Shown here one piece after another: positions 573-31,685 of a stretch of 41,009 nt of DNA; position 1 is the stretch's first letter, and every line of letters begins with the position of its first letter. The DNA is from a virus. The notes beneath the pieces were generated by a model. The model worked only from the letters and a program-made list of their open reading frames with translations. It did not search any database and was not told where the DNA came from. Both the position numbers and the translations under genes were made by a program. The stretch spans positions 1-41,009 of IMG/VR virus record IMGVR_UViG_3300032240_002669, one strand, 5' to 3'.

Positions 573-1223
573 ATGAAGATAATTGAAACCCCGTTTATGG
601 TTGGTGATGATCAGATTGGAACTGTGAAGCGCTATACCGATATTGAACCTGAGTTAGCTAATCCCCAGCCACGTGATAGGGTTTTACCCGCACCGTATTT
701 TTACGAGAAGCGTTTATATTTTTTTCTAATCAAACAACGCGAACCCGGTGAACCAGGATGGCCACGTGGTGGCTATGAGGTACGTGATGAGGGTGGTGCG
801 TGCCGTTGTTTTGATTTGGATCAGGTGATTTTACACCCAGCCGTGATCAAACACAAGCGTACACTGGATAAGATGCAGCGCACGGCCGAGAAGCTAGCTA
901 AGCAACGTGAGCGTGATCTGAAGCGTGGTGCTAAACCGAAGAAGGAGAAGGTGGAAGGCGGCCGCAGGGGTCGACCAGCACTTGATCCAGCGGTAAAGGC
1001 AGCCCGTGACGCAGAGAAGCTAGCACGTGGTGAACGCAGCGGAGGGAAACGTGGTAGACCAGCTTCTGGTGTTACACCGAAAGCCCCTAGGGCCGCAACC
1101 GGAGGCAAGCGCGGGCGTCCTTCACTCACTAGTGAGATGATCAGCCAGCGCGCCAGCCAGAAAGCAATGGTGAAGGCACGTACTGGTGGACGTAGGGGTC
1201 GACCTAAAGTAACTAGACGATAG
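573..1223 (+). CDS. AT-hook protein with four hooks
   Basis: A basic protein of 216 aa. Residues 1-90 form a non-repetitive domain I do not recognise. The rest is a Lys/Arg/Ala-rich tail with four AT-hook motifs (core RGRP) at about 129-136, 157-164, 177-184 and 205-212, each as GG(R/K)RGRP. AT-hooks bind the minor groove of AT-rich DNA, so the protein probably coats or bends phage or host DNA early in infection, or acts as a regulator. The spacing of 28, 20 and 28 residues shows a repeated unit related to the one in the 2283-2537 product. It is the first gene after three tandem promoters, so high early expression is likely. The DNA-binding role is inferred from the motifs; the N-terminal domain function is unknown. 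Confidence 0.75.
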   Translation: MKIIETPFMVGDDQIGTVKRYTDIEPELANPQPRDRVLPAPYFYEKRLYFFLIKQREPGEPGWPRGGYEVRDEGGACRCFDLDQVILHPAVIKHKRTLDKMQRTAEKLAKQRERDLKRGAKPKKEKVEGGRRGRPALDPAVKAARDAEKLARGERSGGKRGRPASGVTPKAPRAATGGKRGRPSLTSEMISQRASQKAMVKARTGGRRGRPKVTRR

Positions 1224-1224
1224 C

Positions 1225-1256
1225 CGTGTTTGGCAGAGTTTTGTTCATATATTTAC
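1225..1256 (+). promoter_or_regulatory. Early promoter module
   Basis: The -7 box TATATTTAC lies at 1248-1256 after the conserved GGCAGAGTTTTGTTCA block. There is no TTTG at the usual -33 distance; CGTG at 1225-1228 sits there instead, as in some other early modules. The leader AAAATTAAAAGAT leads into the ATG at 1282. Confidence 0.55.
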
Positions 1257-1281
1257 ACCGTACTAAATAAAATTAAAAGAT

Positions 1282-1488
1282 ATGATTTACGAAATTTTTA
1301 CACACACCGATCGCCTTGTTTATTTACAGAAAGCGATGGGTGATCAGATTGTTATTTTAAGTGAACCAGACGCATCTGGTCAGTTAAAGATCTCTATTGA
1401 AGTTGAGAGTGCGATTGATATCCTAGATATCTTCCACGCCGGAGTGAGTTACGGTTTAGATAAAATGAAAGCTGTTTACACCCAATAA
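1282..1488 (+). CDS. Small early protein, FHAG-motif family (copy 1)
   Basis: A 68-aa protein of unknown function. Its second half, (I/V)xILDIFHAGxxxGxDK, matches the product of 1779-2000, so the two are paralogues separated by one other gene. No membrane segment or known domain is visible. It has its own promoter and an A-rich leader without a Shine-Dalgarno sequence. The ATG at 1282 lies 26 nt after the -7 box, as in neighbouring units. It is probably a cytosolic early protein that acts on host functions, but nothing in the sequence says which. Confidence 0.6.
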   Translation: MIYEIFTHTDRLVYLQKAMGDQIVILSEPDASGQLKISIEVESAIDILDIFHAGVSYGLDKMKAVYTQ

Positions 1489-1490
1489 GT

Positions 1491-1520
1491 GGTGTGGGCA
1501 GTGTTTTGTTCATATATTCA
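1491..1520 (+). promoter_or_regulatory. Early promoter module
   Basis: GGGCAGTGTTTTGTTCA is followed by the -7 box TATATTCA at 1513-1520. The -33 position lacks TTTG (GTG/TGTG instead). It lies just after the stop codon of the preceding gene. Confidence 0.5.
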
Positions 1521-1539
1521 CGGTATAAAATTATTAAGT

Positions 1540-1737
1540 ATGGATTTGAGATTAAGATGTGTTAAAGGTATTGCAGATAAAACTAATATTATCTGTTTAG
1601 TGAATGATGTTGTAAGAATAGTCATTGTAGATGAAGGTTTAATTACTGTTGTTGGTGAAAAAGGTTGGTGTCAAGGTATGGAACTAGAGTTTTCTACAAT
1701 TGAAATTGCAGAACAATTTGAAGTGTTTTTCGGTTAG
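1540..1737 (+). CDS. Small hypothetical early protein
   Basis: A 65-aa protein starting MDLRLRCVKG. An in-frame GTG at 1489 would place the start upstream of the promoter module and would translate the promoter itself, so I chose the ATG at 1540, which has the standard spacing from the -7 box. The sequence alternates hydrophobic and charged residues, as in a small beta-rich fold. It lies between two paralogous genes. Function unknown. Confidence 0.55.
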   Translation: MDLRLRCVKGIADKTNIICLVNDVVRIVIVDEGLITVVGEKGWCQGMELEFSTIEIAEQFEVFFG

Positions 1738-1760
1738 GCACCGTTCCGTTCTTATCTTGA
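1729..1760 (+). promoter_or_regulatory. Early promoter module (weak match)
   Basis: TTCG at 1729-1732, a 20-nt gap, then TATCTTGA at 1753-1760. The spacer contains GGCACCGTTCCGTTCT, a diverged form of the early block. It overlaps the end of the upstream gene. Confidence 0.45.
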
Positions 1761-1778
1761 ATTATAAAATTAAAGGTT

Positions 1779-2000
1779 ATGAAATACAAATTAGTTATGA
1801 ACAAAGAGCGTTTTGATGCTCTAAATGAGAAGATGAGTGATAAAGTGGTTATCATTAAAGAAGAGGTTGAAGGAGATACTTACTGGATCCACTTTGAGGT
1901 TGAGATTGAGGGTGTAGTTGACATGCTAGATTTTTTCCACGCTGGTTACCATGCTGGTTATGATCGTGGAGTGAATTTATTCAGACCTAAGTACGATTAG
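1779..2000 (+). CDS. Small early protein, FHAG-motif family (copy 2)
   Basis: A 73-aa acidic protein related to the product of 1282-1488: both have a (S/G)D(K/Q)(V/I)VI(I/L) stretch followed by DhLDhFHAG, then G-x-D. The invariant FHAG and the following Gly/Asp suggest a conserved turn or ligand site. No known family is recognised. The gene has its own, weaker promoter and an AAATTAAAGGTT leader. The duplication with divergence suggests two related targets or dosage, which is inference. Confidence 0.6.
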   Translation: MKYKLVMNKERFDALNEKMSDKVVIIKEEVEGDTYWIHFEVEIEGVVDMLDFFHAGYHAGYDRGVNLFRPKYD

Positions 2001-2001
2001 G

Positions 2002-2034
2002 TTTTCCGGGGTAACGTTTTGTTCGGACATTTAC
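2002..2034 (+). promoter_or_regulatory. Early promoter module
   Basis: GGGGTAACGTTTTGTTC precedes GACATTTAC at 2026-2034. At the -33 position there is TTTT rather than TTTG. It sits between the paralogue gene and a short membrane peptide gene. Confidence 0.45.
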
Positions 2035-2060
2035 ATTATAAACTTAAACATAAATAAAAT

Positions 2061-2216
2061 ATGGAATTATTTCAAATTGTAGGATCAGTAGTATTATTAG
2101 CAATGTTTTTTGTACCAGCGTATAACATCTATAAGAACAGATACGTGATCGAAATGAAGGATAGCCGTGGGGTTGTTCGTAAGCGTGACATGCGTAACGG
2201 TCGTTTTGTTAAATAA
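2061..2216 (+). CDS. Short membrane peptide (51 aa)
   Basis: An ATG at 2061 opens a 51-aa frame ending at the TAA at 2214-2216. Residues about 4-20 are hydrophobic (FQIVGSVVLLAMFFV) and predicted to span the inner membrane; the rest is a basic cytosolic tail. The promoter module and A-rich leader directly upstream support it as a real gene despite its length. It may act on the host envelope; the exact function is unknown. Confidence 0.6.
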   Translation: MELFQIVGSVVLLAMFFVPAYNIYKNRYVIEMKDSRGVVRKRDMRNGRFVK

Positions 2217-2219
2217 TAT

Positions 2220-2252
2220 TTTGGTTGGGCAGGGTTTGGTTCCGATATTTAC
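2220..2252 (+). promoter_or_regulatory. Early promoter module with intact -33
   Basis: TTTG at 2220-2223, a 20-nt gap, then GATATTTAC at 2244-2252. The spacer holds GGGCAGGGTTTGGTTCC. It drives the small AT-hook gene. Confidence 0.6.
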
Positions 2253-2282
2253 AATATAAATTAAAAATAAAAAATCAAGGTT

Positions 2283-2537
2283 ATGTCAACAGAAAAATCA
2301 GCACAAAGAGGTCGTCCAGTATTAAGTACATCAGCTCGTCAAGCACGTTTAGCAGCCAGAGCAGCTAGAGCAGCCGCGGGTGGATCAATTGGAAGAGGTC
2401 GACCAGCAAACGGTGATTCAGCACGTCAACAGAAATTAGCTGAGCGCGCAGCGAAAATTGCAGCCGGGGAAGTGATCAAGCGTGGAGCCCCTAAGAAGGT
2501 AACACCAGACACGACACCAGCCGAGGTAGCTGCATAA
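2283..2537 (+). CDS. Small AT-hook protein built from a 29-residue repeat
   Basis: An 84-aa protein rich in Ala, Arg and Lys. RGRP cores lie at residues 9-12 and 38-41, with a degenerate third copy (RGAP) at 67-70, exactly 29 residues apart. Between them run Ala/Arg-rich helices with a common SARQ..LA.RAA pattern. The hooks should bind AT-rich DNA in the minor groove, and the helices may bridge DNA. The repeat resembles the 28-residue unit of the 573-1223 product, so the two genes probably share ancestry. A strong terminator follows at 2542-2585, making this a single-gene transcript. The nucleoid-protein-like role is inferred. Confidence 0.7.
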   Translation: MSTEKSAQRGRPVLSTSARQARLAARAARAAAGGSIGRGRPANGDSARQQKLAERAAKIAAGEVIKRGAPKKVTPDTTPAEVAA

Positions 2538-2541
2538 TTGT

Positions 2542-2585
2542 TCACGGTGGGTGGGGAGTTTAACCTCACCCGCGTGACTTTTTTT
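2542..2585 (+). terminator. Intrinsic terminator after the small AT-hook gene
   Basis: Stem GGGTGGGG (2549-2556) pairs with CCTCACCC (2564-2571). An outer stem TCACG (2542-2546) pairs with CGTGA (2573-2577). A run of seven T follows at 2579-2585. This is a textbook Rho-independent terminator. Confidence 0.75.
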
Positions 2586-2615
2586 ATCAATTTTTTACCA
2601 CTAATAATTAATATT

Positions 2616-2831
2616 ATGATTAAGATATTCGGATACACTATCAATTTGTTACAGTTCATAACGGTTTTTTTATTCGGCACCAGAGCCGAGGGTGAAGCGA
2701 TCAACCTGGAGTACGGCGTGGAGCAACCCAAGCGCACAGTGGAGCCCCAGGGGCAACCAGACCAGTTCGACTGGATGCATCAGCTGAGGGTGAGTTCACT
2801 CCATGGGGTAAATCAGAGGGTATTTTATTAA
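2616..2831 (+). CDS. Small protein with N-terminal membrane segment
   Basis: A 71-aa frame from the ATG at 2616. I chose this start because the upstream part of the open frame overlaps the terminator. Residues 1-20 are hydrophobic and could be a signal or anchor. The remainder is polar, GC-richer than its surroundings and rich in Gln and Pro, with no known domain. No early promoter module precedes it, so transcription probably depends on leakage through the terminator, and the gene may be marginal. Confidence 0.4.
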   Translation: MIKIFGYTINLLQFITVFLFGTRAEGEAINLEYGVEQPKRTVEPQGQPDQFDWMHQLRVSSLHGVNQRVFY

Positions 2832-2837
2832 AGTAGA

Positions 2838-2870
2838 TTTGGAGGTCAGAGTAATTTTTCGTATTTTTAC
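2838..2870 (+). promoter_or_regulatory. Early promoter module with intact -33
   Basis: TTTG at 2838-2841, a 20-nt gap, then TATTTTTAC at 2862-2870. The spacer holds GGTCAGAGTAATTTTTCG. Confidence 0.6.
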
Positions 2871-2896
2871 GACATAAATAAATTAAAACAAAATAT

Positions 2897-3154
2897 ATGA
2901 GTACTAACAAACCGTATTTTCGAGTTGAGTTAACAGAAGAGAACCAGATTCACGTTGAGTGTGATGGAAGTGGAAGTGAATTAATGAATCTATTCGCGAA
3001 CGTGATCAACGATAATCCAGACATTGCTGAAGTGATCACATTAGCCTTGATGGCTGTTTCCATGAGGAAAGATGAGGAAGCAGGTGTTGAGGGGTTAAGT
3101 GAAGAGGATGTGATTGATATGGTTCAGAAGTTAAAGGTTGTTGGTGACGCATAA
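2897..3154 (+). CDS. Small acidic hypothetical protein
   Basis: An 85-aa acidic protein with predicted helices in the second half (residues about 25-80) and a short beta-like start. No known motif. It has its own promoter with both boxes and an A-rich leader. The acidity and small size fit a DNA-mimic or an inhibitor of a host enzyme, but nothing specific supports that. Confidence 0.6.
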   Translation: MSTNKPYFRVELTEENQIHVECDGSGSELMNLFANVINDNPDIAEVITLALMAVSMRKDEEAGVEGLSEEDVIDMVQKLKVVGDA

Positions 3155-3171
3155 TTAAAGATAATAGCCGA

Positions 3172-3199
3172 CGTGGCTTAAAAACGGTTCATACTTTTA
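3172..3199 (+). promoter_or_regulatory. Possible weak promoter
   Basis: ACGTGGC at about 3171-3177 and GGTTCA followed by TACTTTTA (3192-3199) resemble the early module. The hairpin at 3217-3238 lies only about 20 nt downstream, so the transcript would be very short unless it reads through. Confidence 0.3.
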
Positions 3200-3216
3200 A
3201 TTTTTAATGGTTAGAG

Positions 3217-3246
3217 GAGCTGGGTGTCTACCCGGCTCTCTCTTTG
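3217..3246 (+). terminator. Hairpin, probable terminator, next to a promoter
   Basis: GAGCTGGGT (3217-3225) pairs with ACCCGGCTC (3230-3238), nine pairs with one G-T, loop GTCT, followed by TCTCTTTG. The TTTG at 3243-3246 doubles as the -33 box of the next promoter. Confidence 0.6.
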
Positions 3247-3274
3247 CTAGGCAGGGTTCACAGCGTATATTCAC
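3243..3274 (+). promoter_or_regulatory. Early promoter module
   Basis: TTTG at 3243-3246, a 19-nt gap, then TATATTCAC at 3266-3274. The spacer holds GGCAGGGTTCACAGCG. It follows the hairpin at 3217-3238 without a gap. Confidence 0.6.
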
Positions 3275-3296
3275 GTTGTACTTAAAATTAAAAGAT

Positions 3297-3500
3297 ATGA
3301 ATTTAACAATTGAAGAAGTGAAAGTGATGAGATTGGCGTTACAGAAAGCTCCATTAGCTCGATTGACACTTGACCTAGCAACCAGAACAGATAAGTGGTT
3401 AGCTGACCAGGGGTGGAAATTAGAATACCGCGCGTTACCTAAGGTAAAATATCAGCGCCAAAAACACGAGTATGTTTGGGTGGAAATTAATAATCAATAA
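3297..3500 (+). CDS. Small basic hypothetical protein
   Basis: A 67-aa protein starting MNLTIEEVKV. An in-frame ATG at 3207 lies upstream of the terminator hairpin and promoter and would translate both, so the ATG at 3297 with the standard AAAATTAAAAGAT leader is preferred. It looks like two short helices followed by a basic, aromatic beta-rich end. No known family. The lipoprotein gene follows 10 nt later and is probably in the same transcript. Confidence 0.55.
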   Translation: MNLTIEEVKVMRLALQKAPLARLTLDLATRTDKWLADQGWKLEYRALPKVKYQRQKHEYVWVEINNQ

Positions 3501-3510
3501 AATTACATTT

Positions 3511-3684
3511 ATGAAGCAAACCAAGTATTTACCTGAAATGGTAATCGGATGGATCATTGCAGTTGCAGTAGTGGTGGGTCTCACCAGCTGCTCAAGCACC
3601 AGGCACTCAAGCACCCCTTCCACCCGCGTGGTTCAAGGGACGAGTGAATGGAAGTATGTTGAATTAAGGGGTAATAAGCATTAA
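3511..3684 (+). CDS. Small phage lipoprotein
   Basis: A 57-aa protein starting MKQTKYLPEM. A hydrophobic signal segment at about 10-23 is followed by lipobox LTSC with Cys27 as the predicted lipidation site, then a short Ser/Thr-rich tail. The mature part of about 30 residues would be exported and anchored in the envelope. Small phage lipoproteins (T5 Llp, streptococcal phage Ltp) block superinfection by binding receptors or the DNA-injection step; a similar job here is inference. The start at 3511 gives the signal peptide its correct N-terminus. The gene ends just before a GC hairpin plus promoter. Confidence 0.6.
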   Translation: MKQTKYLPEMVIGWIIAVAVVVGLTSCSSTRHSSTPSTRVVQGTSEWKYVELRGNKH

Positions 3685-3690
3685 ACAAGA

Positions 3691-3722
3691 CGGGGCGGGG
3701 CAAAGCCCCGTCCGTATCTTTA
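3691..3722 (+). promoter_or_regulatory. Hairpin-promoter module
   Basis: CGGGGC (3696-3701), loop AAA, GCCCCG (3705-3710) form a perfect hairpin. Four bases later comes the -7 box TATCTTTA (3715-3722). The hairpin occupies the place between -33 and -7, and no TTTG is found at -33. The upstream transcript would carry the hairpin; the new transcript would not. Confidence 0.6.
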
Positions 3723-3745
3723 TGCTGTACTTAAAATTAATGGTT

Positions 3746-4033
3746 ATGAAAACAAGAAATTATATGATGAAGCAGTTAGAGCAAGCATGGGGCATTCGCT
3801 TCATCAGCACGACTGAGGAGTTCAATGGGTCTCAAGGTGGGATCTGGTTATCGGGTGAAAATGGGGATACAGATCCCTTAGATGGTGGAATGGAGTTATT
3901 CGATTATTACTCAGAGAATTATAGCCGATATGAGTTTGGGGTTTATAACCGTATTAGGGAGTGGGCTGAAAGTAAAGGCTGGTGGTTCGAATGGAATGAT
4001 CCAGGAACAATCATGTTGTGGCCTATGAACTAG
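3746..4033 (+). CDS. Hypothetical early protein, Trp/Gly/Glu-rich
   Basis: A 95-aa protein starting MKTRNYMMKQ. Two further in-frame ATGs (3722, 3740) are nearer the -7 box; 3746 fits the spacing of the sister units best. The sequence is acidic in the middle and aromatic-rich at the end, without membrane segments. No known family. It is a single gene between two hairpin-promoter modules. Confidence 0.55.
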   Translation: MKTRNYMMKQLEQAWGIRFISTTEEFNGSQGGIWLSGENGDTDPLDGGMELFDYYSENYSRYEFGVYNRIREWAESKGWWFEWNDPGTIMLWPMN

Positions 4034-4035
4034 GA

Positions 4036-4068
4036 CGTGGCGGGGTAAGGCCCCGCTCGTATATTTAC
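4036..4068 (+). promoter_or_regulatory. Hairpin-promoter module
   Basis: GCGGGG (4040-4045) pairs with CCCCGC (4051-4056), loop TAAGG, followed by the -7 box TATATTTAC at 4060-4068. CGTG at 4036-4039 sits at the -33 position. Confidence 0.6.
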
Positions 4069-4090
4069 CCCGTACTTAAAATTAAAAGAT

Positions 4091-4321
4091 ATGAATATTG
4101 AAAAAAAGATTGAAGTAAGATTGCAGCAATTAGGTGCTGCGTGTGAGCGTCTGGAACAGTACCAAGCCAGAGGCTGGGATGTGATGGCTGCAACCACCAA
4201 GGTTGCGATCGCTAGATTAGAGCGTGAGATTGATCAGTTAGAGTGCGCTGAATCTGGTTACGGGGATGAATCACCAGCTGAGTACAGACGAATGATGGCT
4301 GAGATAGGCGTCGTGCTGTAA
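4091..4321 (+). CDS. Small coiled-coil hypothetical protein
   Basis: A 76-aa protein, mostly helical with heptad-like hydrophobics (residues about 4-60), so probably a short coiled coil or helical hairpin. No catalytic motif. The ATG at 4091 follows the module leader AAAATTAAAAGAT. The next gene starts 30 nt after its stop without a module, so the two probably share a transcript. Confidence 0.6.
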   Translation: MNIEKKIEVRLQQLGAACERLEQYQARGWDVMAATTKVAIARLEREIDQLECAESGYGDESPAEYRRMMAEIGVVL

Positions 4322-4351
4322 ATAATATTTATCATTATAATAAACACATTT

Positions 4352-4510
4352 ATGAAAATATTAAACGTAACCCGAGAAACAGTAACTGTAAAGATGGCCA
4401 GCGGTGAGACCAAGATGATCCCGTTCGCCGAGTTTAAAGCACAGTACCCAACCGAATTAAAGCGCTGGGTGGAAGACGAGATTGACTTCCGTAACGACAG
4501 ACGAATATAA
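4352..4510 (+). CDS. Small hypothetical protein (52 aa)
   Basis: An ATG at 4352 opens a 52-aa frame to the TAA at 4508-4510. The first part (MKILNVTRETVTVKMASGE) looks like beta strands, the second like a charged helix. It follows the preceding gene by 30 nt and is followed immediately by a hairpin-promoter module, which supports it as a real gene end. Function unknown. Confidence 0.5.
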   Translation: MKILNVTRETVTVKMASGETKMIPFAEFKAQYPTELKRWVEDEIDFRNDRRI

Positions 4511-4543
4511 CGGGGCGGGGCAGAGTCCCGTTCGTATATTTAC
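4511..4543 (+). promoter_or_regulatory. Hairpin-promoter module
   Basis: CGGGGC (4516-4521), loop AGA, GTCCCG (4525-4530), one G-T pair, then the -7 box TATATTTAC at 4535-4543. It starts at the base after the upstream stop codon. Confidence 0.6.
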
Positions 4544-4565
4544 GGTATAATAAAAATTAAAAGTT

Positions 4566-4862
4566 ATGAATAGAAAAGAAATCGTTAGAGCAATTACATA
4601 CAAGGTATGTGAATACGCTCAGTCATTAGGTTACACCATCGAGGATGATGGGTTCGGAGGTAGATTACAATTCCAGAAGCCAGATGCTAAGGATGCTTAT
4701 GATTGCATCGAGTGGAGCCGTTCGTACCAAGACGCTGTATGTGTTAATTGGGCTAGTGATGAATTAAAGGTTGACTGTGAGAAGATAGATACTCATATGA
4801 AACCTATAATTGAGTATTACAACGCTCAATACGTAGATAAACGTAAAAAAGCAGTAGCATAA
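4566..4862 (+). CDS. Hypothetical early protein (98 aa)
   Basis: A soluble protein with an N-terminal helix (IVRAITYKVCEYAQSLG), a glycine-rich turn and beta-like stretches, ending in a basic tail. No motif that I recognise. The ATG at 4566 has the standard module spacing. It is a single gene flanked by two hairpin-promoter modules. Confidence 0.6.
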   Translation: MNRKEIVRAITYKVCEYAQSLGYTIEDDGFGGRLQFQKPDAKDAYDCIEWSRSYQDAVCVNWASDELKVDCEKIDTHMKPIIEYYNAQYVDKRKKAVA

Positions 4863-4894
4863 TGTGACGGGGCAAAGCCCCGTTCATATATTCA
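4863..4894 (+). promoter_or_regulatory. Hairpin-promoter module
   Basis: ACGGGGC (4867-4873), loop AAA, GCCCCGT (4877-4883), seven perfect pairs, then the -7 box TATATTCA at 4887-4894. The hairpin begins within 5 nt of the preceding stop codon. Confidence 0.6.
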
Positions 4895-4917
4895 AGTCAC
4901 AATTAAAATATAAAAGT

Positions 4918-5115
4918 ATGTTAACAAAACGAATGAGAGATTTAGAAAGACAAGCAGACGCGATCGAGCAAGCTGCTGAAAACAAAAGCACTATCAACGT
5001 GAACAGTTTAATGAACATGAACGATATGTATTATGTAGGTAACTTAGTAGATGTAGATGGAGATGGTTGGGTAAGTAAAGCTGAAGCACAGCAAATATTA
5101 GATGAAATAAGCTAA
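4918..5115 (+). CDS. Small EF-hand protein
   Basis: A 65-aa protein starting MLTKRMRDLERQ. A helical first half is followed by a perfect EF-hand calcium loop at residues 45-56: Asp45, Asp47, Asp49, Gly50, Ser53 and Glu56 occupy positions 1, 3, 5, 6, 9 and 12. A short helix follows. It probably binds Ca2+. A GTG at 4864 is in frame but would read through the hairpin and promoter, so the ATG at 4918 is chosen. A single EF-hand usually pairs with another, so it may dimerise. The partner and role are unknown. Confidence 0.65.
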   Translation: MLTKRMRDLERQADAIEQAAENKSTINVNSLMNMNDMYYVGNLVDVDGDGWVSKAEAQQILDEIS

Positions 5116-5181
5116 TAAGCAACTATAATATCAGCTATATAAACAATAACCAAATACCAATCAATTAAAAGTATAACAAAC

Positions 5182-5376
5182 ATGAAAACATTATTTACAA
5201 GCAAGTACATTGAAGTATCATTAGTAACAGGTCTAGTGGTAGGTATAGCTAAAGCAGACGACACGTATGCCCTATTATTAGGATTTATAGTGATCGAGTT
5301 TAAAGCATATAATATGGTGAAGAATAAGCGTGGTAAATGGGAAGGCACGCGTGCTGGTAAGCCCAACAAACTATAA
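5182..5376 (+). CDS. Small membrane-associated protein
   Basis: A 64-aa protein with hydrophobic stretches at about 11-21 and 28-42 and a basic C-terminal tail (KNKRGKWEGTRAGK). One or two membrane passes are possible. There is no hairpin-promoter module in the 66 nt upstream, so it probably shares the transcript of the EF-hand gene. The minus-strand frames across it look like shadows. Function unknown. Confidence 0.5.
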   Translation: MKTLFTSKYIEVSLVTGLVVGIAKADDTYALLLGFIVIEFKAYNMVKNKRGKWEGTRAGKPNKL

Positions 5377-5396
5377 TGGGCGCCCGCCGATTGAAT

Positions 5397-5445
5397 GCCC
5401 GGTTATCCGGGCGTTCGTAATATCGGGCATCCGGGCAACCGGGCA
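5397..5445. repeat. CCGGGC hairpin and 8-bp iterons
   Basis: GCCCGG (5397-5402), loop TTAT, CCGGGC (5407-5412) form a perfect hairpin. CGGGCA then recurs at 5424, 5432 and 5440, exactly 8 bp apart. Confidence 0.6.
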
Positions 5446-5469
5446 CGTGACCAAAAAAGGTTTCGGAGT

Positions 5470-5500
5470 CGATAGCGGGACGATAGCGATACAATAGCGA
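5470..5500. repeat. 11-bp-spaced GATAGCG repeats
   Basis: GATAGCG at 5471-5477 and 5482-5488 and AATAGCG at 5493-5499 are spaced 11 bp, about one helical turn, so bound proteins would line up on one face of the DNA. Confidence 0.6.
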
Positions 5501-5701
5501 AGTGCTCCCACGCTAATTGCGGTCAATCGACGGGCCACGGTCAACGCAAAAAAACTATGGGTATTCGCGACAGAAACACCGTAAACATTGGCCGACAGGT
5601 ATATACGCATATATTAGCCCAAAATCACACCTCATATTTCCAAAAATACCCCTTTTACCCACATTTGCGAAATCCCAAAAGTAGATCTTAAACAAAATTA
5701 G

Positions 5702-5734
5702 TTTCAAGTGGCAAGGTATATACGTTACATTCAC
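5702..5734 (+). promoter_or_regulatory. Early promoter module
   Basis: TTTC at 5702-5705, a 20-nt gap, then TACATTCAC at 5726-5734. GGCAAGGTATATACG fills the spacer. The ATG at 5755 follows an AAAATAAAAGGTT leader. Confidence 0.5.
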
Positions 5735-5754
5735 GTAAACAAAAATAAAAGGTT

Positions 5755-5952
5755 ATGCTTACATTATTACTCAGCTATTGGGCGTTAACAACAATATTAG
5801 GAATTTATTGGATGGTTAAGAACCCATCAATTCAACAAGACCCCAACGAATTTACATTACTTGAAGTTGTCGCACATATATTTCCTTGCGCGTTACTCGC
5901 TTGGGCTATTATACCAATGATGTTATTGAATAAAATCAAATTCAAACGTTAA
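5755..5952 (+). CDS. Small two-pass membrane protein
   Basis: A 65-aa protein with two hydrophobic segments, residues 2-22 and about 39-59, joined by an acidic loop and ending in a basic tail (NKIKFKR). Both ends are predicted cytosolic. No known family; a role in envelope modification or exclusion is possible but unsupported. It is the first gene of a three-gene unit with the GIY-YIG protein and a second membrane peptide. Confidence 0.6.
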   Translation: MLTLLLSYWALTTILGIYWMVKNPSIQQDPNEFTLLEVVAHIFPCALLAWAIIPMMLLNKIKFKR

Positions 5953-5962
5953 GCCCTTAGCC

Positions 5963-6460
5963 ATGATACGCCTCACACCCGACGAAGCCAAGCAATACCG
6001 TCAATTAAATCCAGACACCGATTTTAAGTACCACATGAAGTCCGCTATCGGTTATACACTTTCACCCGATACAAATAATCCAGGCTGGGAGTCCATCACA
6101 TATTATGGTGCTAGTTGGATCGATCCTACTCTTACCCCACACAATCCTCATTACGTTTACGTTCTTTGTAATCCTTCTATGCCGGGTATATGTAAAATTG
6201 GTTATACGACGACAACAGTTTATGATCGCGTTCGCCAGCTTAATTTAGCTACGGGCGTTATTACGCCATGGTATCCTGTATTTGCATATAAGTGCCCTAA
6301 CGGCCGTATGTTGGAGAATGAAGTTCATAATGAACTTGAGTTATTAGGTGCACGAGTAAACAAGAAACGTGAGGGTTTCTATATGTCATCTGATGATGCG
6401 CGTAAAATTATTGAAAAATTAGGTGCTAAATATCAAAATCAAAATTATACTAATGAATAA
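5963..6460 (+). CDS. T5orf172/GIY-YIG-type protein
   Basis: A 165-aa protein. From residue about 64, YVYVLCNPSMPGICKIGYT matches the start of the T5orf172 (MUG113) branch of the GIY-YIG nuclease superfamily, with YVYV as the GIY strand and KIGYT as the YIG strand. VYDRVRQLN supplies the usual Arg, LENEVHNEL the catalytic-type Glu, and GFYMSS the closing motif. The N-terminal 60 residues are an extra region of unknown function. Family members are found in phages and often have unclear targets; DNA cleavage is plausible. It begins 10 nt after the membrane gene and overlaps the start of the next by 8 nt, so the three are co-transcribed. Confidence 0.75.
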   Translation: MIRLTPDEAKQYRQLNPDTDFKYHMKSAIGYTLSPDTNNPGWESITYYGASWIDPTLTPHNPHYVYVLCNPSMPGICKIGYTTTTVYDRVRQLNLATGVITPWYPVFAYKCPNGRMLENEVHNELELLGARVNKKREGFYMSSDDARKIIEKLGAKYQNQNYTNE

Positions 6461-6641
6461 ACATTTACATCTTCCTATTGCTGTTTTTATTTGGATGTGT
6501 GGTCATATCGCACTTGCGGTTTTATTTGTTTATTTGTTAGTAACACGTTTACCTTCTTTTTGGTTTATGTTTTGGAGTTTTTCATTTATGCATTTTTGTT
6601 GGTTGGAGATTGCGAGGGAATATAATAGAACCCATTTTTAA
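6453..6641 (+). CDS. Small two-pass membrane protein
   Basis: A 62-aa protein starting MNKHLHLPIA. I chose the ATG at 6453, which overlaps the stop of the GIY-YIG gene by 8 nt (typical coupling), over an in-frame start at 6423 deep in that gene. Hydrophobic segments at about 8-30 and 34-52 are rich in Phe and Trp. Function unknown. Confidence 0.55.
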   Translation: MNKHLHLPIAVFIWMCGHIALAVLFVYLLVTRLPSFWFMFWSFSFMHFCWLEIAREYNRTHF

Positions 6642-7515: not shown

Positions 7516-7548
7516 GAGCGACTTGTGAAAACAGGTCGCTCTTTCTTT
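7516..7548 (+). terminator. Intrinsic terminator overlapping the next promoter
   Basis: GAGCGACTTGT (7516-7526), loop GAAA, ACAGGTCGCTC (7531-7541): eleven pairs with one G-T, then TTTCTTT. The last TTT is part of the TTTG -33 box of the sigma operon promoter. Confidence 0.85.
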
Positions 7549-8017: not shown

Positions 8018-8305
8018 ATGGAAATAGTATTAGGAATATTAGGACTAATTGTTATAGTTCTAGGTTTTACAACTTGGAACTTATTAATGAAAAACGAAAA
8101 AGCAGAAGACTTAATCAGTGAACAAGATGAATTAATTAACACATTAACGTCTAGTGTAATTAAAATTGATGAAGTAATCACACAATTGGATTCATCAGGT
8201 GCATTTGAAAGTGATGATGAAATAGGTACGTTCTTTGAACAAATAAAAAGTATGAGAGATACCTTATTAAATAATTTAGATAAAAAGATAGAAAATAATG
8301 TATAA
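8018..8305 (+). CDS. Membrane-anchored coiled-coil protein
   Basis: A 95-aa protein with one N-terminal membrane segment (residues about 2-24) followed by an acidic helical domain with heptad-like pattern (30-92). The short N-terminus and charge pattern predict the helical part in the cytosol. It overlaps the gp55-like gene by 8 nt and is surely co-expressed with it. Function unknown; spanin-like or membrane-tether roles are possible. Confidence 0.55.
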   Translation: MEIVLGILGLIVIVLGFTTWNLLMKNEKAEDLISEQDELINTLTSSVIKIDEVITQLDSSGAFESDDEIGTFFEQIKSMRDTLLNNLDKKIENNV

Positions 8306-9092
8306 CGGATATTACGATAATGATAATTTTGATGCCGCTAAATTTTTAGATGAGCAAATGGGTCCCGCTTTAACTAAAAAGGGCAACGTACGTAAACGTA
8401 AACCAAAGCAACCTAGAATATATTTTACAGAGGATACTGAAAATGCTATTGTTGAGTACTTATCACATACTGATCAAGAAATTAGAAATAAAATATATAA
8501 TTCACGTATTGCTTATGGTTTTTATAAATTAGCTGAAAATATTATCCATACGTTTAAATTTTACTATACTGACACAGATACGATTGAGGATTTAAAACAT
8601 GAGGTAGTAGCGTTTCTTCTTGAGAAACTACACTTATATAATCAAGATAAAGGTAAAGCTTATTCATATTTCGGTACTATTGCTAAACGTTACTTAATAG
8701 TTTACAACCAGAACAACTATAAGAAACTACAGGAAAAAGTAAATATGGACGAAGTAAACGACGAAAACGATATGTTTGTCGATAATAACATAGGATTAGA
8801 TGAGGAGAAGAATGAGCTTAATATGTTTTTAGATCAATATGTTGCTTACGTAGACAAACACATTTATACTATATTCCCTAAACAACACGATGCTCGAACA
8901 GCAGATGCGATTGTTGAATTATTTCGTAAACGAGAGAATTTAGAAATATTTAATAAAAAGGCATTATACATTTATATTCGTGAAATTACAGATGTAGATA
9001 CACCTCAAATTACTAAAATCATTAAAAAGCTAGATACAATACGTCTTAAATTATTTAATGAATTTTATGAACACGGGTATATAAAAATGTAA
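8298..9092 (+). CDS. Late-transcription sigma factor, gp55-like
   Basis: A 264-aa protein. Residues about 60-135 match the sigma region 2 of T4 gp55 relatives: RIAYGFYKLAENIIHTF, then DLKHEVVAFLLEKL, then YNQDKGKAYSYFGTIAKRYLI, which are the core-binding and -10-reading helices. gp55 proteins replace the host sigma factor and direct RNA polymerase to late promoters that have only a -10 box, together with the sliding clamp. That fits the TATATTTAT boxes without -33 ahead of late genes here. The protein is longer than T4 gp55 (about 185 aa), with extra N- and C-terminal helices. It is the last gene of an operon under a host-type promoter. Identification is by motif reading. Confidence 0.75.
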   Translation: MYNGYYDNDNFDAAKFLDEQMGPALTKKGNVRKRKPKQPRIYFTEDTENAIVEYLSHTDQEIRNKIYNSRIAYGFYKLAENIIHTFKFYYTDTDTIEDLKHEVVAFLLEKLHLYNQDKGKAYSYFGTIAKRYLIVYNQNNYKKLQEKVNMDEVNDENDMFVDNNIGLDEEKNELNMFLDQYVAYVDKHIYTIFPKQHDARTADAIVELFRKRENLEIFNKKALYIYIREITDVDTPQITKIIKKLDTIRLKLFNEFYEHGYIKM

Positions 9093-9106: not shown

Positions 9107-9114
9107 ATATTTAT
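9107..9114 (+). promoter_or_regulatory. Candidate late promoter box
   Basis: ATATTTAT (preceded by C, followed by ACGTA) 22 nt before the ATG at 9137 and just after the gp55-like gene. There is no proper -33 TTTG at the 20-nt distance. Confidence 0.45.
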
Positions 9115-14597: not shown

Positions 14598-15197
14598 ATG
14601 AATCTAGAAAAATTGAAAGGACATGTTCCTGATGCAGTTATTTCTCAAATCCCAGGAGTTATGGAAAAGTTCCAGATCAATACTCCGTTACGCTTAGCTC
14701 ACTTCTTAGCTCAATGTGGTCATGAGTCAGGTGGATTTAGATTAACAAAAGAAAACTTAAATTACTCCGCTAAAGGATTAATGGGAATTTTTAAAAAATA
14801 TTTCCCTAATGAAGATTTGGCTAAACAATATGAGCGCAAACCAGAAAAAATTGCCAATAAAGTATATGGTAATAGAATGGGTAATGGTCCCGAAGCATCT
14901 GGTGATGGTGCTAAGTTTTGTGGACGTGGTTATATCCAACTAACAGGTAAAGATAATTATATTGCTTTTGGTAAAGCTATTAATGAAGATTTAACAGTAG
15001 ACCCAACATTAGTAGCATCAAAATATGCATTATTATCCGCTGCTTGGTTTTTTAGTAAGAATGGGTTAAATAAATTAGCTGATGGTGGTGCAACAGATGC
15101 AGTTGTTACTATGATTACTAAGAGAGTTAATGGTGGTACTATTGGGTTGCCTGATAGAATTAAACACTTTAAAGAATTTTATGCAGTATTAGCATAA
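14598..15197 (+). CDS. Glycoside hydrolase family 19 lysin
   Basis: A 199-aa single-domain enzyme. LAHFLAQCGHESGGF at 33-47 is the GH19 active-site helix with Glu43 as the predicted acid; GDGAKFCGRGYIQLTGKDNY at about 99-118 and SAAWFF are further GH19 signatures. Such phage enzymes cleave peptidoglycan glycan strands. There is no signal peptide, so access to the wall needs either a holin or incorporation in the tail. Its place just after gp6, and the lack of a lysozyme domain in the gp5-like spike, suggests that it may serve in the tail; it could equally be the endolysin. A terminator follows directly at 15228. Confidence 0.85.
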   Translation: MNLEKLKGHVPDAVISQIPGVMEKFQINTPLRLAHFLAQCGHESGGFRLTKENLNYSAKGLMGIFKKYFPNEDLAKQYERKPEKIANKVYGNRMGNGPEASGDGAKFCGRGYIQLTGKDNYIAFGKAINEDLTVDPTLVASKYALLSAAWFFSKNGLNKLADGGATDAVVTMITKRVNGGTIGLPDRIKHFKEFYAVLA

Positions 15198-15227
15198 TAT
15201 TCAAAAATAATACATAATTAAAGTAAG

Positions 15228-15274
15228 AGTTTCCGGTTGCTATATTTATATGTAGCATAACCGGAAACTTTTTT
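15228..15274 (+). terminator. Terminator with a late promoter box in its loop
   Basis: AGTTTCCGGTT (15228-15238) pairs perfectly with AACCGGAAACT (15259-15269), followed by six T (15269-15274). An inner stem GCTATAT/ATGTAGC adds seven pairs. The apex contains TATATTTAT (15241-15249). Confidence 0.8.
15241..15249 (+). promoter_or_regulatory. Candidate late promoter inside a terminator loop
   Basis: TATATTTAT lies 27 nt before the ATG at 15277 and within the hairpin at 15228-15274. A start about 7 nt downstream would give an mRNA without the left arm, so the new transcript could not be terminated here. Confidence 0.5.
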
Positions 15275-15276
15275 AC

Positions 15277-16344
15277 ATGGCCGTATACAAAATATTCCCT
15301 GAAAAGGACGCAACAATTTATTCTTACTACCCCTCAACTAATACAGGGCTAGACGAAATTCTAGAAATTAGTACTTTTGAAACTACTTACAGTGGTAATA
15401 GAGAGTCTTCTAGAGCTCTTATTAAATTCTCTACTAGTGAGATAACAAATATAATTGCTAATAAAGTATCAGGAAGTGGGTATAAAGCCTACTTAAAGCT
15501 ATATTTAGCAAATGCATCTGAAATCCCATCAGAATATAAAATTGAATGTTACCCAGTATCGGGAGCTTGGGATATGGGAACGGGACGTTTAGCTAATTTC
15601 CCATCTACTAATGATGGAACTAGCTGGAGTGGTAGAACATCTACAGTATCATGGAGTATTGAAGGTGGTGATTTTTATACTAGTTCATTTTCAACTCAAT
15701 CTTTTGCATATAACGACGAAAAGGATATTGAATTAGATGTTACTACAACTGTAGCTGCATTTAATGCTTATGAAACAAATCCATTTGCTGCTCTTAGAAT
15801 TAAAAATGAAGGATTTATTTTAAAACATTCAAGTAGTATAGAATTTTCTACTGCTAGTTCTCCATTTGAATTAAAATATTTTTCTACAGATACTCATACT
15901 ATTTATCCACCTTGTTTGGAAATTAGATGGGATGATAGTACATTCGTTACTGGTAGTAACACTGTAACTCATAATCATAAAGCCGTTGTTTCATTAAAGA
16001 ACAATAAAGCAGAATTTCAACAAGACTCAGTTAATAAATTCAGATTAGGAGTTAGAGACCAATACCCACCAAGAACATTTAATACAAATCAATTGTATAT
16101 AACGGGTTCTCAATTATTACCTAGTGCGTCATATTGGGCTATTAAGGATTTAGATACAGAGGAATGGATTGTTGATTTTGATACTAATTATACAAAGATT
16201 AGTGCAGATCCTACTTCTAGTTTCTTTACAGTTCATATGAATGGATTACAACCAGAAAGATTTTATAAAATAGTGATCAAATCAATAATTGATGGTTCAA
16301 CTATTATATTTGATGAAGATTATATTTTTAAAGTAATTAGATAA
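15277..16344 (+). CDS. Tail/baseplate protein with DNRLRE-like domain
   Basis: A 355-aa beta-rich protein. The start, FPEKDATIYSYYPSTNTGLDEI, and the pattern of short strands up to about residue 215 resemble the DNRLRE/CBM96-type beta-sandwich found in bacterial and phage surface proteins. A second beta domain covers about 235-355. It is probably a peripheral baseplate or fibre subunit, perhaps sugar-binding. It begins directly after the terminator-promoter element and is coupled to the next gene by TAATG. Confidence 0.6.
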   Translation: MAVYKIFPEKDATIYSYYPSTNTGLDEILEISTFETTYSGNRESSRALIKFSTSEITNIIANKVSGSGYKAYLKLYLANASEIPSEYKIECYPVSGAWDMGTGRLANFPSTNDGTSWSGRTSTVSWSIEGGDFYTSSFSTQSFAYNDEKDIELDVTTTVAAFNAYETNPFAALRIKNEGFILKHSSSIEFSTASSPFELKYFSTDTHTIYPPCLEIRWDDSTFVTGSNTVTHNHKAVVSLKNNKAEFQQDSVNKFRLGVRDQYPPRTFNTNQLYITGSQLLPSASYWAIKDLDTEEWIVDFDTNYTKISADPTSSFFTVHMNGLQPERFYKIVIKSIIDGSTIIFDEDYIFKVIR

Positions 16345-30662: not shown

Positions 30663-30679
30663 GTAATAAATTAATATTT

Positions 30680-30710
30680 ATAGGTGGCTTGGCTCGTCCA
30701 GGTCACCTAT
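30680..30710 (+). terminator. Hairpin abutting a late-type promoter
   Basis: ATAGGTGGCTTGG (30680-30692), loop CTCGT, CCAGGTCACCTAT (30698-30710): thirteen pairs with two G-T. No T run follows; TATATTTAC begins 2 bases later. Confidence 0.65.
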
Positions 30711-30711
30711 T

Positions 30712-30720
30712 TATATTTAC
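30712..30720 (+). promoter_or_regulatory. Candidate promoter box after hairpin
   Basis: TATATTTAC at 30712-30720, directly after the hairpin at 30680-30710, with the ATG at 30726. The short distance would make the mRNA leaderless or nearly so. Confidence 0.4.
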
Positions 30721-30725
30721 GACAC

Positions 30726-31685
30726 ATGATCAAACTGATTGACATAGCTAAATTAATTGTTGAAGGTGGTAATGTATTTGATGCTACATCACCAATCGAC
30801 AAGGCTAATATTGAACCTACATTAGAAAAATTCATAGACGAATTGTCACGTATTTTTCCTAAAAAGAAAGATACATTTAAAGCATTTGAAAGATTAGGGT
30901 CAGTTGGCAAGAAAAATGTATCAGGAGATATTGATTTATCATATAATGAACATCATTTATATAATAAAAATTTACCTGATTTTAAAGGTTGGGGAGTGGA
31001 TGAAGGTAAATATAATGAATTATTTCAATTATTTACTAAGCGCTCTAGAGTTTCAACACCAGCTCAAATATCATTACGAGCTATGGTTGAATTAATATCA
31101 ACTAAATTAGATGAAAACTCTAGTGAAATAGAAGTTGATACTAAATCATCAGGTAAAGGTACAATATTTTGTAGTGCACCTCAATACAATCCTCAAGGTC
31201 AAAAATTAAATAAAAATGTTCAAATTGACATTAATATTGGAGACCCAGATTGGTTAAGATTTAGTTATCACTCAGCTATGTATCAAGATAATGTTAAAGG
31301 TTTACATCGTACTCAATTAATATTATGTTTATTTTCTCTTAAAGGTAGGATATTCAATCACGCTATAGGTGTTATTAATAAAGAAACAAGAGAAAATGAA
31401 GCTAAAAATCCAACTGAAGCTGCAGCATTGTTGAATAGATTATTTGGATTTGAAATTACTCCTGAAATATTAGACGATTACCATAAGTTAATTGGTTTTT
31501 TAAAGAGTAATTTGAGTGAGGAAGATTATAATAAATTAATTGATAAATTTTTAAGAATACTAGACTTAACTAGAGCTGATATTCCTGATGGATTACAACA
31601 ATATTGGATTGATAACCAAGATAGATTGCAACTAACAGGCAAATATCTCCCAGATAATTCAAGATTATTACAATATAAGAAATGA
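30726..31685 (+). CDS. Polymerase-beta-type nucleotidyltransferase with capsid-targeting-like start
   Basis: A 319-aa protein. Residues 1-13 (MIKLIDIAKLIVE) form an amphipathic helix ending in IVE before Gly, like a T4 capsid-targeting peptide. The enzyme core has RLGSVGKKNVSGDIDLSY with Gly58-Ser59 and Asp68/Asp70, and the third acidic residue in VQIDINIG (Asp168). This is the active-site pattern of the nucleotidyltransferase superfamily (transfer of NMP to RNA, protein or small molecules). The C-terminal half is helical, as in many members. I chose the ATG at 30726; an upstream in-frame start would run through the hairpin. It overlaps the kinase gene by 4 nt. Confidence 0.65.
   Translation: MIKLIDIAKLIVEGGNVFDATSPIDKANIEPTLEKFIDELSRIFPKKKDTFKAFERLGSVGKKNVSGDIDLSYNEHHLYNKNLPDFKGWGVDEGKYNELFQLFTKRSRVSTPAQISLRAMVELISTKLDENSSEIEVDTKSSGKGTIFCSAPQYNPQGQKLNKNVQIDINIGDPDWLRFSYHSAMYQDNVKGLHRTQLILCLFSLKGRIFNHAIGVINKETRENEAKNPTEAAALLNRLFGFEITPEILDDYHKLIGFLKSNLSEEDYNKLIDKFLRILDLTRADIPDGLQQYWIDNQDRLQLTGKYLPDNSRLLQYKK

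Follow-up and report, generated by a model that had tools for sequence, protein, structure and literature searches.

How can a late promoter lie inside a hairpin that resembles a transcription terminator, and what would such a hairpin do to the expression of the gene behind it? This question is raised by the short interval between a GH19 endolysin-like gene and a gene for a 355-aa protein in the window, by which we mean the whole stretch of viral DNA analyzed here (41,009 nucleotides). The initial annotation had read the interval as a terminator closing the endolysin unit, with a promoter in its loop whose transcripts escape. We favor, with a probability of about 0.6, a different emphasis: the element would be a read-through filter in the style of phage T4 e and I-TevI whose chief effect is on translation and to which termination has probably been added in the window's clade. 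The parts of the locus are the following.

14598 to 15197, plus strand: GH19 endolysin-like gene, 5' of the hairpin element (PHROG 181 endolysin, E 1.9e-71; Pfam Glyco_hydro_19, E 4.4e-9).
15228 to 15238, plus strand: left arm of the hairpin, AGTTTCCGGTT, in perfect pairing with the right arm and predicted to be absent from box-started RNA.
15242 to 15249, plus strand: late-type promoter box, ATATTTAT, lying inside the hairpin with its 5' half in an inner stem, marked by strand bias and by conservation at the junction.
15254 to 15255, plus strand: predicted transcription start, a purine 12 to 13 nt from the first base of the box.
15259 to 15269, plus strand: right arm of the hairpin, AACCGGAAACT, pairing with the left arm and lying within the leader of the 355-aa gene.
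15269 to 15274, plus strand: T6 tract, broken by a C in L010 and L012 (CTCTTTT).
15277 to 16344, plus strand: 355-aa gene, proposed to be governed by the element and located among baseplate/tail genes.

The source virus is a T4-like phage, with gp25- and gp6-type baseplate genes as well as the GH19 endolysin in the 41-kb window. Its closest cultured relatives found are Flavobacterium phages of the genus Immutovirus, which carry gp20, gp23, protease, and terminase genes of T4 type, and the host probably belongs to Flavobacterium-like bacteria. The 355-aa product has no match in PHROG or Pfam; its orthologue in Flavobacterium phage immuto lies directly 3' of a baseplate wedge gene. The related genomes compared are one-directional and 160 to 171 kb long, with strand counts of long open reading frames (ORFs) of 138:1 and 142:0 in those of 171 and 160 kb. 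Since transcription runs one way in these two relatives, read-through is a general problem for such genomes. Elsewhere in the window, positions 573 to 6641 hold a run of short ORFs, many with a GC-rich segment on their 5' side (GGCAGGGT or GGGGC..GCCCCG hairpins) followed by a box like TATATTTAC and a leader rich in A; these are probably early promoters whose -7 box resembles that of the host. Between this early region and the late block stands a strong terminator-like hairpin, GAGCGACTTGTGAAAACAGGTCGCTC plus TTTCTTT, at 7516 to 7541.

The hairpin is real and no product of chance. As the initial annotation stated, its stem is a perfect 11 bp (15228-15238/15259-15269) with a T6 tract, although the first T of the tract is also the final stem base (15269), leaving five T after the stem. 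Folding of 15220 to 15280 gives -27.0 kcal/mol, compared with -8.3 ± 2.25 for shuffled sequences (z = -8.3; 0 of 200 shuffles). This is the sole perfect 11-bp inverted repeat with a loop of 3 to 30 nt within the window; shuffled windows contain a mean of 0.93 such repeats, and none of 100 shuffles contained one with at least four GC in the arm and a T-rich tail. The box, which had been placed at the hairpin apex, is indeed enclosed by the arms, but there is no open loop, because its first half is paired in an inner stem, GCTATAT/ATGTAGC, that leaves a loop of 4 nt. A feature that had gone unremarked and that bears on function is the ATG of the 355-aa gene at 15277, 2 nt past the T run and 7 nt past the stem; the main stem excludes this AUG, and folding places it partly within a weaker outer helix. 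Database matches to the left arm plus box fall at the GH19/355-aa junction in 27 of 28 cases, and no further exact copy of the arm sequence was found in the related genomes searched.

Several lines of evidence from comparative sequence analysis support ATATTTAT as a late-type promoter element, as had been suspected. The sequence at 15241 to 15249 is TATATTTAT. In two related genomes, ATATTTAT is biased to the coding strand (57:5 and 55:10) and stands mostly 20 to 35 nt 5' of ATGs, and this one-stranded placement ahead of ATGs suggests that transcription runs in the coding direction. A purine occurs 12 nt from the first base of the box in 33/35 and 27/30 cases, the rule by which the start in the window is predicted. 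At the GH19/355-aa junction the box is present in 80 of 96 distinct leaders of relatives, most of which are without the GC hairpin. As in T4 late promoters, where gp55 directs recognition of a TATA box, an 8-bp AT box lies about one helical turn before the putative start (PMC2988020), and a gp55-like sigma candidate is encoded. Unlike in T4, the box read in the direction of transcription is ATATTTAT and not TATAAATA, the two being reverse complements; put in terms of strands, the late box ATATTTATA is the reverse complement of TATAAATAT, and the T4 late box sits on the opposite strand. ATATTTAT(A) also resembles the -7 box of Flavobacterium, TAnnTTTG (PMC9723704).

The probable reader of the box and the late box of the upstream operon lie close together.

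8298 to 9092, plus strand: gp55-like late sigma candidate, with weak profile matches and a structural match.
9107 to 9114, plus strand: late box of the upstream tail operon; the orthologous box in other relatives is also inside a hairpin, with no such hairpin in the window.

The ORF at 8298 to 9092, just 5' of the tail operon, gives two weak profile matches, Sigma70_r2 (E 0.003, below cutoff) and phrog_1740 sigma (E 0.006). Its predicted structure, of moderate confidence, best matches T4 gp55 in the promoter complex 7d7c (Z 9.6, rmsd 3.3 over 118 residues), and the lower ranks are mostly sigma factors; Z values below 13 can be unspecific for helical models, so the gp55 match is support rather than proof. 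Foldseek alone returned nothing below E 0.001 for this model, hhalign against T4 gp55 was not significant, and a gp55 family sequence search found no match in the related genomes G001, G003, and G008 and a marginal one in immuto, where the gene orthologous to the sigma candidate has a weak phrog_234 match. We regard this ORF as a candidate late sigma of Bacteroidota T4-like phages that family libraries recognize only weakly.

With the box at 15242 to 15249 between the arms and the start predicted at 15254, late RNA would not contain the 5' arm, and the structural contrast on which the initial annotation was built holds: RNA from upstream has both arms and box-started RNA has one. To express what this contrast could mean for translation, we used the opening energy of the start region (-14 to +14) in read-through RNA minus that in box-started RNA. 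The difference is 14.1 kcal/mol in the window and 13.4 kcal/mol in G003, ranks 1 and 2 of 71 box genes (median, 2.1). The identical calculation on T4 late genes puts e first (13.4 kcal/mol, close to the value here) and I-TevII second (11.3) of 16 box-gene pairs, and in T4 the hairpins of both genes are described as being avoided by RNA from nested late promoters (PMC3014915; PMC2988022). The calculation did not detect T4 soc and thus misses some cases. Across 84 distinct orthologous leaders of the 355-aa gene, the median difference is 7.6, compared with 0.7 and 3.8 for two control late genes; the orthologues share kinship, so Mann-Whitney values on these leaders are descriptive only. When the tested region is cut to -10 to +10, the window difference falls to 1.4-7.0 kcal/mol, since the ATG itself is outside the main stem. 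By folding, a stable hairpin would cover the translation initiation region of upstream-started RNA, with the window ATG partly covered.

These values suggest the following mechanism. Polymerase arriving from upstream, in the GH19/tail operon or in earlier transcription, would produce RNA with both arms, which would fold so that positions of about -18 to -8 of the 355-aa gene lie under the right arm, as does the start codon itself in relatives. With the start region covered in read-through RNA, ribosomes could not initiate there. In the window's clade, the U tract after the hairpin would probably end much of the read-through RNA as well. Polymerase recruited to the ATATTTAT box, presumably with the gp55-like late sigma, would instead make RNA from about 15254 without the left arm, so that the start region would be open. 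The 355-aa gene would thus be expressed solely from its own late promoter. Against reading the element as a filter, there is no obvious need for an early/late switch here, since a late box of its own (9107) already serves the upstream operon.

The element corresponds to a switch described in phage T4, that of e, soc, 49, and I-TevI, and occurs here in altered form in a distant relative; the initial annotation did not draw this likeness. In the leaders of T4 e, soc, 49, I-TevI, I-TevII, I-TevIII, and segB and of Aeh1 mobE, hairpins hide the ribosome site in long transcripts, and the late RNA is without the 5' arm. As in the e class, the late box here is inside or between the arms, read-through RNA can fold and box-started RNA cannot, and the phages are of T4 type. 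Unlike the e class, there is no Shine-Dalgarno site to be expected, the box is ATATTTAT instead of TATAAATA, a U tract follows the window hairpin, which could therefore act as a terminator too, the controlled gene encodes a 355-aa baseplate-region protein, and the switch is predicted from sequence and folding. Flavobacterium mRNAs are without Shine-Dalgarno sites, and structure in the start region tunes initiation (PMC6847099). In hosts of this kind, the whole start region rather than a Shine-Dalgarno site must be hidden. The A of the ATG is paired in relatives with AT hairpins, and the AUG of the window is 7 nt past the stem, in a phylum where no Shine-Dalgarno site is expected.

Comparing the GH19/355-aa junction leader among relatives, we told three forms apart. 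The first, in close relatives (27 database copies), has the GC arms AGTTTCCGGTT/AACCGGAAACT plus T6, or CTCTTTT in the L010 group, and the hairpin is kept in all copies found. Within the window's clade, the L010/L012/G003 subgroup has CTCTTTTAC as its U run, and the C in it converts a G-U to a G-C stem pair. The second form, in most relatives with GH19 upstream (protein about 50 to 58% identical), has arms such as TAGTTTGGTAGTTAC/GTAATTACTAACTA and no U run, and its outermost pair takes in the A of the start codon ATG. In the third form, the enclosing hairpin is slight or absent, and in many of these leaders the transcribed box itself can base-pair around the start codon, e.g., CATATTTATATG with CATGTAATTATG. 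Shuffling of the upstream flank gives P values of 0-0.03 for the first form and mostly 0-0.08 for the second. Enclosing hairpins are not significant in the L030, L044, L053, and L149 orthologues, and the orthologue in immuto lacks both the box and the hairpin. In the AT-hairpin class, covariation among 30 relatives did not exceed that in shuffles (one pair with double changes), as expected where the right arm hardly varies, and RNAalifold returned just a small local helix for the same set; we rejected covariation as proof of structure because its signal is not beyond chance. What the relatives have in common is that read-through RNA is predicted to hide the start region of the downstream gene.

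Two observations on individual leaders concern the arms themselves. In L066, L082, L084, and L060, whose leaders are orthologous to 15242-15277 and have no flanking arms, the box RNA CAUAUUUAUAUG can pair with the start codon region; if the promoter sequence served as left arm too, box-started RNA would be exempt in the same way. In L020 (1950-2003), little of the hairpin and the box is left, and GGGAAACTCTTTTACATG follows the end of GH19, through either a deletion or an assembly join.

Orthologues of a 131-aa gene (9137 in the window) in another clade, among L398-L442, provide a second junction with the box inside a hairpin and no U run. Their arms, such as TAGTTTC/GAAACTA, are accompanied by an outer helix over the start region, and the box-enclosing hairpins have P values of 0-0.017 in 9 of 10 cases. 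The leaders are L422 (347-403), L417, L436, L400, L403, L398, and L404; the left arm appears to reach into the last codons of the sigma-like gene. Covariation is uninformative (96.7% of cells paired, no double changes). The hairpin is absent from the window copy of this junction and present in the other clade, which suggests that the box-in-hairpin arrangement has arisen repeatedly.

Could the hairpin be simply an intrinsic terminator for the GH19 unit whose loop holds a late promoter, translation being uninvolved? The T6 tract, the GC-containing 11-bp stem, and d'Aubenton-type scores of +5.4 in the window and +4.0 in the L006 group are like those of other terminators of these phages (-2.6 to 43), and these genomes do set terminators beside late boxes; termination in the window is plausible on these sequence grounds. 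However, the score falls to -1.1 in the L010/L012/G003 group, where a C breaks the U tract and makes the stem stronger, and to -65 in the second form, the GH19-linked AT-hairpin relatives, whose box-enclosing hairpins have no U tract; at its base, beside the U tract, the stem is also A/U rich. Moreover, elsewhere in the related genomes, the terminator hairpin and U run come directly before the late box rather than around it (9 of 45 and 4 of 34 boxes by automatic detection, a few doubtful calls among them), whereas at the focal site, alone among late boxes of the genomes compared, the box is inside a strong hairpin. Enclosing hairpins are not enriched over all late boxes (1 to 2 of 30 to 35 per genome), a point against the read-through filter. 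Our literature search found no close precedent for promoters inside terminator loops. We consider a pure terminator unlikely, and termination, judged from these alignments, is not the conserved property at orthologous junctions. The core logic of the initial annotation is probably right; its claim that upstream RNA folds and stops finds support in the window score but is too narrow as termination alone, and the insulation of two late units that it proposed, for which the hairpin does score as a terminator with a stable stem and T tract, is elsewhere the task of ordinary terminators before the box. A separate arrangement is seen at 30674 to 30726, where box AATATTTAT is directly followed by a strong hairpin, AGGTGGCTTGG..CCAGGTCACCT, and a T-rich tail before the next ATG; a start from the first box would land within the left arm. 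It is kept in G003 (29737, reversed orientation) and in G008 (70096), where two boxes flank the hairpin.

The inverted repeat might also serve at the DNA level, as the site of a dimeric regulator controlling the box. Its near-symmetric arms do flank a promoter, and I-TevI binds an operator overlapping its own late promoter, besides having a hairpin (PMC2988022). Against such an operator, however, arm sequences differ among relatives, the related genomes searched hold no other exact arm copy, and the pairing in relatives uses G-U (the inner stem of L006, the L046 class), which is symmetric as RNA and not as DNA; we give this reading very little weight. Nor do we see much room for a plain late promoter with a chance or neutral hairpin, or with one that solely protects the 3' end of upstream mRNA after processing and leaves the downstream gene unaffected. 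Some orthologues without an enclosing hairpin and the absent covariation signal would fit it, but it is improbable given the fold z score, the retention of the hairpin in every first-form copy, and the top start-occlusion difference of the 355-aa orthologues among genes compared. We consider a wider version of the read-through filter doubtful: the hairpin would terminate the upstream unit, block translation from RNA that escapes, and carry an exempt late promoter, and one-directional Bacteroidota T4-like genomes would have this combination again at other junctions, each time with arms built independently.

If the read-through filter is confirmed, the start-hiding switch of T4 would be extended to T4-like phages whose hosts work without Shine-Dalgarno sites. 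For such phages, with genomes of 160 to 170 kb read one way, read-through is a constant problem. The many natural variants of the junction, with GC arms and an intact or broken U tract, AT arms that extend to the start codon, or no hairpin, would make termination and the block of translation separable.
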